From an uncultured bacterium (lineage in GTDB: Bacteria > Patescibacteriota > Gracilibacteria > Absconditabacterales > Absconditicoccaceae), in NCBI GenBank assembly GCA_947168725.1, contig CAMVNA010000007.1, positions 1 through 58,419 of the forward strand: a DNA stretch of 58,419 bases, written 5' to 3'. Positions 3,173-7,943 of the stretch are shown here, one piece after another (position 1 is the stretch's first letter; the number at the start of each line of letters is the position of its first letter). A model generated the notes under the pieces. That model was not told where the DNA came from. It searched no databases and saw nothing but the letters and a program-made list of their open reading frames with translations. The translations under genes were made by a program, and so were the position numbers.

Positions 3173-4645
3173 TTACATTCACATTAATCTCTGGAAATAT
3201 TCTTCCTTGCTCATTCACTGAATATTCAAAACTACTTTTTTACCTAGTTCTTTCTCCAATAAAGCTTCGATTTCTTTATGCTCTTTTTCAAGTATAGTCT
3301 TTGCTATCATATTGTTATCATGTATCAAAGAAACTTCATTATCACTTACTTTATCAATAGTCATATGGTCCTTGAAAATTTGTCTCGTAGTTGATGATTG
3401 AATTTGACTAATTACTCTTTCCCATAAATCTCAATCAGATTTTTTCAAATCCTCCACCACTTCGTGGTCCCCCTCCTTTGTCAAGGAGGAATTTTCATTA
3501 TCTGCGGGTTTATTTTCCCCTCTTGATAAAGAGGGGTTAGGGGAGATTTGTTCAGCTTTTTCTTCTTTTTTTTCTACTTCTTTTTCCTTTTGTGCTCCTC
3601 TTTTAAGGGGAGCTGCCGAAGGCTGAGGGGTTTCTCCATTCAAAAATTTATTGAAAGCTATCTTGTAAAGCACTGCAGGATATGGATAAAATCTTACTTG
3701 TCTCATAATTTCAGAAAAAGTTTCAGAAACTTTGAGATAAAAATCTACATCATCCATTATATGAGCATCAATATATCCAATACATTGTTTAGCGAATTGC
3801 TGTAAATCAGTTCATTGAGCTAATTTATCAATCTGTTCAAAAATCTGATTTCTATCATTTGTTTTAACTACTTCAAAGAATGATTTAATCGTAGCATCAG
3901 TAGAAATTCATAAGAATTGACTTACATTTTCAGTAGAAATTTTTCCTAAAACACTTACCTGGTCCAAATATTTAATAGCATCACGAACACATCACTCCGA
4001 TATCGTAGCAATCAGTTCCAAAGCTTCATTCTCAAATTCAAATCATTCAGTTTTACAAATATTTCATAAATGAGCGACCATTTCATCTTGAGGGATTTTC
4101 TTGAAATTGAAAACCTGCACACGAGAAACTATCGTTTGAGGTACTTTTTGTAATTCAGTAGTCGCTAAAATGAAGCATACATTTCCACTTGGTTCCTCAA
4201 TCGTTTTGAGTAATGCATTAAAAGCTGCAGTAGAAAGCATATGAACTTCATCTATCACATATATTTTCTTTTTCAATGAAATAGGCTGATAACCAGCTTG
4301 GTCAATTATTACTTCACGAACATTATCTACTCATGTATTTGAAGCGGCATCTATTTCCACATAATCTGTAGTTTTTCAGCTATTTATCAATTCACAGTTT
4401 GCACATTTGTTACATGGATTTCCATCGTGTGGATCCAAACAGTTTATCGCTTTTGCTAAGATTCTTGCAGAAGTAGTTTTTCAAGTTCAGCGAGGTCCAC
4501 ATAGTAAGTAATTTTGCAGTGAAGAAGAATCTGACTGCATTTTAGCTTTCAGAATTCAAATTATGTGTTGCTGTCCTATCATTTCATCAAAAGTTTGAGG
4601 ACGATATCTATTCGCTAAAGATTGAGATTTAGTTACATCTGCCAT
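3173..4645 (-). CDS. dnaX: DNA polymerase III gamma/tau subunit
   Basis: A 490-residue clamp-loader ATPase. The P-loop GPRGTGKT is at residues 50-57, two of its glycines being TGA. The four zinc-binding cysteines are near residues 69, 78, 81 and 84. Walker B VIDEVHML and the sensor segment ATTELQKVPQTIVSR follow. Domain III leads into a Lys/Glu-rich linker (about 330-400) that contains two palindromic-repeat insertions translated in frame. The last codons form the 44-bp repeat also found beyond the ATPase gene. ATG at 4645 gives the canonical start; an in-frame ATG three codons upstream (M-G-K-M) is possible. It does not overlap its neighbours. Confidence 0.95.
3174..3217 (-). repeat. dnaX 3'-end repeat (functional copy B)
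   Basis: The 3'-terminal coding bases of dnaX, duplicated at 1765-1808 with 43 of 44 identities. Together the two copies form direct repeats flanking the AAA_14 ATPase gene. Confidence 0.9.
3451..3550. repeat. R1 palindromic repeat inside dnaX
   Basis: Composite element made of a CCAC/GTGG hairpin, a CCTCCTT/AAGGAGG palindrome, AATTTT, a spacer, a CCCCTCTT/AAGAGGGG palindrome and a closing GGGGAGATTTG. The 5625-5714 element has the same order of parts. It is read in frame as part of the dnaX linker (peptide features SLSRGE and SLTKEG). Confidence 0.8.
3595..3637. repeat. second, partial R1 repeat inside dnaX
   Basis: CTCCTCTTTTAAGGGGAG followed by a GCCGAAGGC hairpin and GAGGGGTTT. This is half an R1 unit, translated in frame in the same DnaX linker (PSAAPLKRG). 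Confidence 0.65.
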
Positions 4646-4769
4646 TTTTCACATTCTTCATAATATAAATTATTGCTCTTTCTTTCAATCTATCTATTCA
4701 GACTTTTTTTTCAAATATAAATAAAAAATAAAATAAATCTGAATAAATCTAAAATCAGTTTAAATTTTA

Positions 4770-4973: not shown

Positions 4974-5071
4974 TTAATATATTAAATATAAATGGAATTA
5001 CTTATTGTAATCTAATTATTAAAGCTTTTTTTTCAAATATAAATCTATATAAAAATTTGTGTGTATTAGTT

Positions 5072-5152
5072 TGTCATTCTGAGCATAGCGAAGAATCCAG
5101 GAAAACATGATGTTAATAGATTCTTCGGTCGCTTTGCTCCCTCTGAATGACA
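5072..5152. repeat. R2 dispersed repeat (intergenic copy)
   Basis: Imperfect inverted element with ends TGTCATTC and GAATGACA and internal GAAGAATC / GATTCTTC arms. Repeats of this TGTCATTCTGAGC-type design are common in many bacteria. A related copy lies inside the downstream methyltransferase gene at 6284-6391. Confidence 0.75.
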
Positions 5153-5189
5153 CAACGACCGTGAACTTGTTTAATTTATTCCAACCATC

Positions 5190-6803
5190 ATGAAAAGTAT
5201 TTCATATTTAGATATGGTAAAAGAGATTTTGAATGAAGCAGAATTTTTTGAGTTTGAAAAATGTTATAATAATCCAGTTAAAAAAAGTATAAAAATACTA
5301 AATCATCGCTGATATAAAAATAATAAATCTGATTTACATAATATTATGTATTCTACATTTTCAAATGAGCGAGATTTGTCTGAGCCAGATTTTTCTTATA
5401 ACTGAAATAAATATAATGATGTTTTATTCGCTACAAGGAAAGAAAATCTAAAATCGGCTAGTTTATGAAGTCATTTTTTGCATCAAGCATGACTAGTCTA
5501 TGTGCAGGAAATGGCTGCAAGTTTAAGTGTTCAAATGCTTTGAGTATGGCCTTGAGATTATGTTTTGGATATGTGTGCTGCACCTTGAGGAAAATCTGTG
5601 CAAATCGCTGACCAGTTAATGGTACAAATCTCCCCCGACCCCTCTTTGTCAAGAGGGGGGAATTTTTTGTTCCCCCTTGATAAAGGGGGAGACGGCGAAG
5701 CCGAGGGGGATTTGTGACAAAATCTTGGATTTTTTATCTCCAACGAAATAGATTCATGAAGAAAAAAAGCACTGGAATCAAATCTCCACCGCTGTGGGAT
5801 ATTCAATGTCTGAGTAATTAATCAAGATTGATGCATTATCTGAGATAAATTTCCTGAGACTTTTGATAAAGTGCTGGTAGATGCTCCTTGTTCATGAGAA
5901 TGAATGCAGTACAAATCTGATAAAAAAATCCGACAGCGAGATGAAAAAAAATCAAAAAAACTTTCAGATTTACAAATCCAGTTGCTTATTTCGTGATTAA
6001 AAGCTTTGAAAGTCTGAGGAGAATTGGTTTATTCTACTTGTACGACTAATGTATTAGAAAATGAATATGTAGTTTCAGAAGTTTTGAAAGAGTATTGAGA
6101 TAAAATTGAATTATTGCCAGTTCCATTAGATGAAAAATCTGATTGAATTTGTAGCTGGAGAGAAAATGAAATATTATCAGCTGAAGATGCTAAAAAAGTT
6201 GCTAGACTCTGGCCTCATGTACATTGAACTGGTGGATTTTTCATTGCAAAATTTAGGAAAGTTGGCAGCACTCAAAATGTAAGTCGTCATCTCGAGTGAA
6301 ACGAGAGATCCATGAGTGTTGAGTGGATTTCTCACATTCGTTCGAAATGACAATACATACAAGATTCTTCGGCTAAAGCCTCAGAATGACAGATGTGGGA
6401 GAAGCTTTCCTCTTGGTGAATTTCTCCAGTTTCAGATTTAGACTTTTTTGTTTCAAAATATACCGTAAACATCGCTCCAAAATCACTAATTCAATCTCAT
6501 TTTGAAAATAAGATTCCAAATATAGAAATCTGACTTCCGACATTCAAAATCCTTGGAGATAAAAAGAATAATTCTCAAAAACTGATTCCACTTGTGTGAA
6601 TTGCTCAGATTCTTTGACATTTGGCTACTCAAAATGTACTTGAAATAGACGATGAACAATTAAAATTACTAATGGAGAAAAGAGATTTGATTGATGAAAG
6701 ATTAAAAGATTATGAATGAAATTTTGTAATTTTGAAATGGAATTGAGTGGGAGTTTGACTTGTTTCAGTCCAGAAATGAATATGAAAAAACAAGTGTTTC
6801 TAG
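5190..6803 (+). CDS. 16S rRNA m5C methyltransferase, RsmB/RsmF (NOP2/Sun) family
   Basis: A 537-residue SAM-dependent methyltransferase that should methylate cytosine in rRNA. SAM motif I, DMCAAPGGKS, begins at residue 127. The release cysteine motif DAPCSGEG has Cys at about 234. The catalytic YSTCT has Cys at about 284. A C-terminal RNA-binding region follows. Two dispersed repeats are inserted in frame: R1 right after motif I (residues about 146-176) and R2 after the catalytic core (about 365-401). R2 contributes TGA glycine codons. The product is therefore longer than usual for the family. The gene starts about 40 bp after an R2 copy and is followed by dprA. It is probably functional, since the catalytic motifs are intact. 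Confidence 0.9.
5625..5714. repeat. R1 palindromic repeat inside methyltransferase gene
   Basis: The fullest R1 copy in the window: CCCCTCTT/AAGAGGGG palindrome, AATTTTTT spacer, CCCCCTT/AAGGGGG palindrome, GGCGAAGCC hairpin and GAGGGGGATTTG. All of it is open in the coding frame. Confidence 0.85.
6284..6391. repeat. R2 dispersed repeat inside methyltransferase gene
   Basis: GTCATCTCGAG ... AAATGAC inverted ends, followed by an AGATTCTTCGG ... TCAGAATGACA half element like that at 5.1 kb. It is translated in frame and contains three in-frame TGA codons, so it is open only under code 25. Confidence 0.8.
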
Positions 6804-6890: not shown

Positions 6891-7943
6891 ATGGACATTT
6901 ATACACAGAAAATATTAGCATATTCATTGGATGAAAATCTGACTCCATCAGAGCTTCGTAAAGCTGATGATTTTTCAGATTTCTTTGAAGATCCGGATAA
7001 TCAGCATTCTGCTGAAAAATTAGAAACATGGATGACTCAACATAATATTATATGACTACTGGATGACGATTCAGATTTTCCACACCAATTCTCATCCATC
7101 AAGAATCCACCAGCAATTCTATATGCAATGTGAAATCTAGAAATCCTAAATAATCAAATTCTTTGAATAGTCTGACCTCGCGATATGTCCCAGTATGCCA
7201 ACCAAGTCATGCAAGCATTATTTACTCAAATCTGAAATTCAAATATTGTAACTGTATCGTGAATGGCAAGGGGAGTGGACCATCTCTGTCATCAGCTTTC
7301 TGTCGGTTATCATCTGCCGACTATCGCAATTCTTGGATGATGACTTCGTTATTATCGAAATAGTTCAGCTCGCAGTTTCATGGAGCAAATCATCCAAAAT
7401 GGATGACTGATTTTATCGGAATTTAAACTGGATTTCAAGCCTACTGCACGAAGTTTTCCACAGAGAAATAGACTCATAGCAGGACTTGCTGATGCAGTTT
7501 TTTTGCCAGAAGCTCGTGAATGATCATGAAGCCTAATTACTGCAGACTATGCATATCAATCCCACAAACCGATTTTTGTAGTACCAAATCCAATCTTTTC
7601 AGAAAACTGAATCTGATCCAATCATCTCGTCACATCTTGAAAGGCAAATCTGCTCAGTGATTTTAGTCAAATTTTGAGATTATTTAATATAGACAATTGA
7701 AAAGATGAGATAAAAACAGACTGTCAATATGATAATTTATCATCATTAGAAGGCCTTACTCAGGAAGAAAAAAACTTGCTCAAAATTGTATCACAGCATT
7801 GTAATCAAGATTTTTCCCAGTGGATGTGTGAGATTTCGTCGGATTATTGAGAAGCTATGGTCAAACTTACAGACCTTGAAATGCAATGATATGTCGTTCA
7901 AGAGACTCCGTGAAATTATTTTGTCAAGGTAAAGTTCAACTAG
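6891..7943 (+). CDS. dprA: DNA processing protein DprA (Smf)
   Basis: A 350-residue Rossmann-like ssDNA-binding protein that loads RecA during natural transformation. Visible motifs are GPRDMSQYA, VSGMARGVD, TIAILGGG, LSEF, the FPQRNRLIAGLADAVFLPEA stretch and GSLITADYA. A C-terminal winged-helix-like segment ends the protein. It follows the methyltransferase gene by 87 bp on the same strand and precedes a pilin gene, a competence-flavoured neighbourhood. Start ATG at 6891; no clear Shine-Dalgarno. Confidence 0.93.

Follow-up and report, generated by a model that had tools for sequence, protein, structure and literature searches.

A palindromic repeat in frame in an RsmF-like methyltransferase gene of a bacterium with UGA as a probable glycine codon

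Introduction

Can the genetic code of a bacterium influence which palindromic repeats enter its proteins? The question is raised by an rRNA methyltransferase gene in which a dispersed repeat, here called R2, stands in frame and contains three TGA codons. The initial annotation of the locus held that R2 is translated only because UGA is sense, and that reassignment of this codon makes otherwise disruptive palindromes translatable, a possible neutral route to new peptide segments. In-frame palindromes are in themselves a known route to new protein segments: the Rickettsia palindromic elements (RPEs) reportedly go back to Ogata et al. in 2000 and 2002. We know of no earlier test of the genetic code as a limit on this route, and our literature search, with subscription papers mostly outside it, returned no title on code-dependent in-frame palindromes for these bacteria. 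A repeat family common to relatives that read UGA as sense and relatives that read it as stop, and divided into loop-length classes, constitutes a natural experiment with built-in controls.

Results

UGA is most likely read as glycine

The window analysed here is a stretch of 58,419 nucleotides, contig C7 of G000, our label for the source genome (other G numbers denote compared genomes, and L numbers loci). G000 is a draft genome of 1.07 Mb in 17 contigs, 91% complete. Long open reading frames (ORFs) cover 70% of its examined DNA under code 25, against 2% under the standard code 11. In the methyltransferase gene, the codons for glycines 101, 133, 238 and 448, all invariant among 30 homologues, are TGA. 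A tRNA with a UCA anticodon (G000:C1:346-419) is 74 nt long; it has an initial G, a G1-C72 pair and a terminal U73, all features of glycine tRNAs. From the ORF coverage, this tRNA and the TGA codons at invariant glycines, we conclude that UGA is sense in G000, most likely glycine; TGA accounts for 3169 of the 6481 glycine codons in long ORFs. ARAGORN calls the UCA tRNA (L390) SeC, and its size and ends agree better with a glycine tRNA that reads UGA, as in code 25.

The methyltransferase gene looks intact

The methyltransferase ORF matches PF01189 with an E-value of 1.9e-39 and possesses the RsmB/F domain, two conserved cysteines and an RsmF-type C-terminal domain. As it scores 176.6 bits with the NCBIfam equivalog model for RsmF (NF008898), below the cut-off of 588, we place it in the RsmB/F family as RsmF-like. 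The two cysteines conserved in RsmF-type enzymes, C234 and C284, which we take to be catalytic, are invariant among the 30 homologues. The ORF holds 31 TGA codons, so UGA as sense is needed throughout the gene and not only in R2. The statement that the repeat is translated only because UGA is sense is thus correct for the R2 frame, but it would hold for any other part of this gene. A dprA-type gene (6891-7940; PF02481, E-value 4.9e-59) with 18 in-frame TGA codons adjoins it downstream.

An AlphaFold model built on the 30-sequence alignment has a mean pLDDT of 80 and a pTM of 0.85. Its residues 2-537 align with T. thermophilus RsmF (3m6v; Z 36.3, rmsd 3.0, 436 residues aligned), confirming that the frame runs on past R2 into the conserved C-terminal domain; the match to E. 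coli YebU is similar (Z 35.1, rmsd 2.9, 437 aligned). The pLDDT falls below 50 in inserts at 148-167, 169-176 and 364-393, and also at 44-46, 59-73 and 83-87. The inserts made by R2 and by a second in-frame repeat, R1, are accordingly predicted to be disordered, and in the model the RsmF fold is kept despite them, C-terminal domain included; taken together, this suggests that they are placed where the fold can bear them. With both cysteines invariant and the predicted fold preserved, the gene looks intact.

R2 is a composite of two dispersed palindromes

Table 1. Positions of the methyltransferase gene and of the repeats in and around it (window coordinates).
Feature	Position	Strand	Description
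rRNA cytosine-C5 methyltransferase gene	5190..6803	+	RsmB/F (RsmF-like) family; 537 aa, PF01189, 3m6v fold, code 25 translation
R2, composite in-frame palindromic repeat	6284..6391	+	Residues ~365-401, linker between catalytic and C-terminal domains
Element A of R2	6286..6351	.	Palindrome GTCATCTCGAG...TTCGAAATGAC; second repeat family, core GATTTCTC-N-TCGAAATGAC
Unit B of R2	6363..6390	+	GATTCTTCGGCTAAAGCCTCAGAATGAC; reads DSSAKASEG, TGA=Gly at 6387
R1, second in-frame palindromic repeat of the methyltransferase gene	5624..5720	+	C/G-rich family; loop after SAM motif I helix, residues about 143-177
Family B copy, intergenic	5073..5155	.	Full dimer palindrome just upstream of the methyltransferase gene
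R1-family palindromic repeat in dnaX	3437..3565 (ends approximate)	-	In frame in the dnaX linker; I1 match 3512-3551

Read codon by codon from the ORF start, the three in-frame TGA codons of R2 are indeed present, at codons 370 (6297-6299), 387 (6348-6350) and 400 (6387-6389). Its description as a dispersed repeat is borne out as well: BLAST of the 113-base R2 region finds further partial copies within G000, with E-values as low as 3e-11. The description needs one correction, in that R2 joins two REP-like palindromes: element A comes first and is followed by one unit of family B, which forms the right half.

The family B core, GATTCTTCG-N-CAGAATGAC, occurs in 48 of 286 genomes in our sample of the phylum, and the family to which G000 belongs contributes 211 matches across 16 of its 49 genomes, 9 of them in G000. 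The family A core is likewise found in 16 of the 49 family genomes. Reversed-letter patterns, which served as controls, have no match for either core. The complete 113 bp are present, among the 49 family genomes, only in G000 and G003, at an equal position in the gene and with 97% identity. A census of family A gave 31 copies, 6 of them in genes and 3 of these 6 in a TGA-containing register; two of the three are R2 itself, in G000 and G003. At one locus in G002 (L176, G002:C11:32600-39100), five near-identical family B units form a tandem array with a spacing of ~97 bp.

The R2 copies of G000 and G003 differ at 2 of 108 bases (98% identity). Both differences change an amino acid and so give no sign of selection on the R2 peptide. 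Third codon positions are identical at 36 of 36 sites within R2, compared with 127 of 177 in the flank upstream of it, and, apart from the insert, the gene closest to that of G000 is found in G004, which is without R2. Near-identity next to a diverged flank implies that R2 was shared or converted later than the genes diverged, and points to a recent transfer or conversion.

Repeats turn over between relatives

The linker that houses R2, from K354 to G410, measures 40-58 residues across 18 sequences and 57 in G000. Composite A+B is found there in G000 and G003, and a full B dimer alone in G005. The linker of G004 is a different, repeat-like one; that of G002 holds an independent copy of B, which reads DSSHSFRMT and has no TGA. 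In the distant orthologues L036 (58 residues) and L027 (56), the linker is equally long, unrelated and free of any recognised repeat, so R2 sits in an already variable linker. Residues 365-401, annotated initially as an insertion, are thus repeat-derived without being a clean gain of 37 residues; the counter-example named at that time, an equally long unrelated stretch in orthologues lacking the repeat, is found in part in these two loci. The linker of G004 (L023) reads PHPTPLLIGEGK and resembles a third dispersed repeat, also seen at L004 (PHPNPLLIGEG); one linker hosts several unrelated repeat families.

The R1 loop, judged by the same comparison of orthologues, is a clear gain of length, clearer than that of the R2 linker. 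It measures 51 residues in G000, 42 in G003, G004 and G005, and 17-29 in 12 of 14 other orthologues, the exceptions being L029 (43) and L030 (35). A phmmer alignment of the methyltransferase with 2frx has its gap at query positions 142/178, that is, at R1. The C/G-rich R1 occupies this loop in G000, and a family B copy reading DSSSQAPQND does so in G003, G004 and G005.

R1 has an inverted match at 3512-3551, inside the dnaX gene (3173-4654, minus strand), in which DnaX ATPase domains were found. The R1-family repeat in the dnaX linker contains no TGA among its codons. It is present in G000 and G004 and absent from G003, G005, G006, G007 and G001; the linker is plain and charged in G003 and G005, and different again in G002. 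The intergenic family B copy has its core match on the minus strand (5073-5097).

In-gene copies of family B under two genetic codes

We compared family B copies between the family that reads UGA as sense and standard-code members of the phylum, scoring whether each copy lies in a gene and in which register. A copy was taken as being in a gene if it fell in an ORF of at least 200 aa with coding signal on both sides. Copies with identical context within one genome were counted once, and G149, whose code is unclear, was left out. The UGA-sense set comprises 192 of 211 pattern matches, from 16 of 16 genomes with matches, and the standard-code set 167 of 188, from 37 of 47; the code of the latter group was verified by ORF coverage except in G111, G301, G171, G236, G258 and G291. 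All UGA-sense genomes in the census come from one family, so the reassignment counts as a single event.

Sixty UGA-sense copies lie in genes, 121 outside and 11 are ambiguous; the corresponding figures under the standard code are 34, 125 and 8. The proportions in and out of genes differ between the groups (p = 0.02; per-genome Mann-Whitney p = 0.017; genome-label permutations 546/20000). A smaller census that preceded this one gave in/out counts of 47/97 versus 22/82 (p = 0.06), and of 28/55 versus 9/40 (p = 0.07) for the loop-length class 1 described below. When the standard genomes of that first census were read with TGA as sense, 23 in-gene copies were found versus 22, so spurious long ORFs are not the source of the effect. 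In-gene copies are depleted in both groups: the coding fraction of the DNA analysed is 0.86 in UGA-sense genomes, where 60 of 181 decided copies are in genes, and 0.83 in standard-code genomes.

Copies in genes favour one register, here called DSS. It is used at 40 of 47 independent in-gene sites of the UGA-sense clade versus 8.8 expected, a value reached in 0 of 20000 simulations, and by 18 of the 34 standard-code in-gene copies versus 7.9 expected. A register that needs TGA is used at 25 of the 47 UGA-sense sites (16.8 expected; 184 of 20000 simulations reach this). HSE..EES, the antisense register, exceeds DSS in hydrophilicity (mean KD -2.06 versus -1.08) and yet is used 5 times versus 47, for which reason we reject polarity as the sole cause of the bias. 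Depletion from genes together with the preference for one register indicates that something filters the insertions. The register bias argues against plain neutrality, as selection or insertion preference would act as the filter, and the neutral route proposed in the initial annotation thus appears doubtful.

Loop length decides whether the DSS register contains UGA: it does in class 1 and does not in class 0. Class 0 copies in genes use DSS in 17 of 17 cases in the UGA-sense clade and in 17 of 19 under the standard code; the class as a whole is split between genes and other DNA in similar proportions in both groups (22/19 versus 19/19 in/out). Class 1 copies use it in 23 of 28 cases and in 0 of 11, respectively, the register being closed there by necessity under the standard code. 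It is in this class that the groups separate, with 35/66 in and out of genes in the UGA-sense clade (35 of 101 in genes) versus 11/70 (11 of 81) under the standard code (p = 0.001). Counting shared sites once gives 28/66 versus 11/70 (p = 0.011); with genomes as units in addition, the excess is met in 1259 of 20000 label permutations (p ~0.06). Class 2 copies are seldom in genes in either group (3/36 versus 4/36). The in-gene excess of the UGA-sense clade is therefore confined to the class whose preferred register holds UGA. Within class 1 the effect is carried by 25-mers (20/46 versus 6/61), and the 28-mers, the length of R2's unit B, show no excess (6/14 versus 3/5).

Full dimers lying outside genes have an open DSS register in 21 of 45 cases if TGA is sense, versus 1 of 45 under the standard code. 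Openness over six frames rises 2.77-fold under code 25 for real elements and 2.26 ± 0.19-fold for shuffled ones; since shuffled elements gain nearly as much, most of the added openness is the effect of losing one stop in any such DNA. The earlier claim that reassignment makes these repeats translatable thus finds support in the class-specific excess, and is tempered by the generic gain in shuffles. Its generality is also limited by the standard-code in-gene copies, which use other registers or loop lengths, and by the TGA-free copy in G002. Altogether, the census suggests that UGA as sense widens the usable registers, without being the sole condition.

Discussion

We consider it quite probable that R2 is REP/RPE-like debris in a tolerant linker, and that reading UGA as glycine widened the registers open to such repeats. 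The linker of the RsmF-type methyltransferase, exposed and tolerant of changes in length, would have received interspersed palindromes of this kind, whose debris is translated, we infer, as an unstructured segment. An insertion in a gene would survive if it falls at a loop or linker and if its orientation, register and length modulo 3 yield a flexible peptide that the protein can tolerate; the remaining ones would be purged. UGA as glycine opens the register GAT-TCT-TCG...GAA-UGA (DSS...EG) where the loop length places UGA there, as in R2. The code change would in this way have enlarged the set of registers through which repeats enter proteins. As to the present driver of mobility, we reject a RAYT transposase: PF01797 (Y1/RAYT) has no match in the draft of G000, 91% complete, nor was a Y1 transposase found in the drafts of G001, G002, G004 and G005, all of them repeat carriers, and its presence in 14 of 41 genomes does not agree with repeat number.

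Ordinary linker variation would be a simpler account: an RsmF linker of free length takes any genomic repeat, the code is irrelevant, and TGA appears because it is the commonest glycine codon. The range of linker lengths over 18 sequences suits this account, as do the two distant linkers of similar size and the copies in G002 and dnaX that have no need of TGA. So do the standard-code copies in genes, TGA's share of glycine codons in long ORFs, and a TGA frequency per codon of 0.052 in the elements against 0.040 elsewhere in their ORFs, a small enrichment. It nevertheless seems rather unlikely to us, given that the class-specific excess, together with the DSS register of full dimers, almost always closed under the standard code, indicates an effect of the code on which copies sit in genes.

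Retention for a DNA or RNA hairpin function (mRNA processing, transcript stability or recombination), with translation as a tolerated by-product, is improbable. R1 (z -5.21) and the intergenic dimer (5070-5155; z -4.66, 0 of 200 shuffles as good) do fold far beyond shuffles, and the unchanged third positions of R2 between G000 and G003 would fit such a role. Element A folds with z -2.24 (6286-6353; 6 of 200 shuffles as good), but R2 as a whole folds weakly (z -1.48, equalled by 12 of 200), and it is missing or replaced in G004, G005 and G002. An assembly artefact from a misjoined repeat, conceivable in a draft of 17 contigs, or a decaying gene is far less probable still: G003, another genome of the genus, has the 113 bp in identical placement, and the open frame, both cysteines and the predicted fold are kept.

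In-frame palindromes have been known from Rickettsia since 2000 (PMC10969869, PMC3733652, PMC2996958). In the portions of these sources available to us, RPEs are short palindromes inserted in frame in genes unrelated to each other, where they add segments to the encoded proteins; of the R. conorii RPEs, nearly half are reported within genomic ORFs (PMC10969869), and RPEs typically occupy non-structured protein segments (PMC2996958). The repeats described here are likewise palindromic, interspersed and in frame, and the ORFs that contain them still specify a complete protein. Unlike RPEs, with which the comparison is by description only, they occur in another phylum, and UGA is sense in their hosts, giving glycine in the preferred register. 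Given the Rickettsia precedent, the code-dependent register is the new part.

CGTC-tagged REPs, as described in the accessible text of PMC3733652, are short stem-loops with a GTC end that form head-to-head dimers, are sometimes intragenic and have no dedicated transposase; RPE-4 and RPE-6 are among them. Our repeats share the GTC-ended stem-loops, the dimers and the presence of some copies in genes. However, unit B terminates in TGTC, as does A on its right side; CGTC is found only at the left end of A, and the five phyla named in that text exclude the host phylum here. As the terminal CGTC is lacking in unit B, we do not assign the repeats to this superfamily. In the UGA-sense clade, a head motif, GTCATYYTG, lies at most 75 nt upstream of 33 of 62 copies in genes and of 45 of 93 others; with only about half of the copies so paired, many B units are single.

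PARCEL repeats of Mollicutes are palindromic coding repeats in another UGA-sense clade, where UGA nearly always encodes a conserved Trp (PMC2996958). They differ from the present repeats in being tandem and in the meaning of UGA, and the part of that source at hand contains no comparison of registers between codes. The repeat of a hypervariable Gracilibacterium gene, by the accessible part of its description (PMC6851277), is a tandem PTD repeat, unrelated to R2.

More tentatively, and with less than even confidence, we propose that the change of code altered which mobile palindromes enter proteins. By the opening of DSS...EG, the housekeeping enzymes of the clade may have acquired one flexible Ser/Glu/Gly linker peptide after another, through a route closed to standard-code relatives with the same repeats. 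If true, this would tie the reassignment of a codon to a measurable change in the entry of selfish DNA into proteins.
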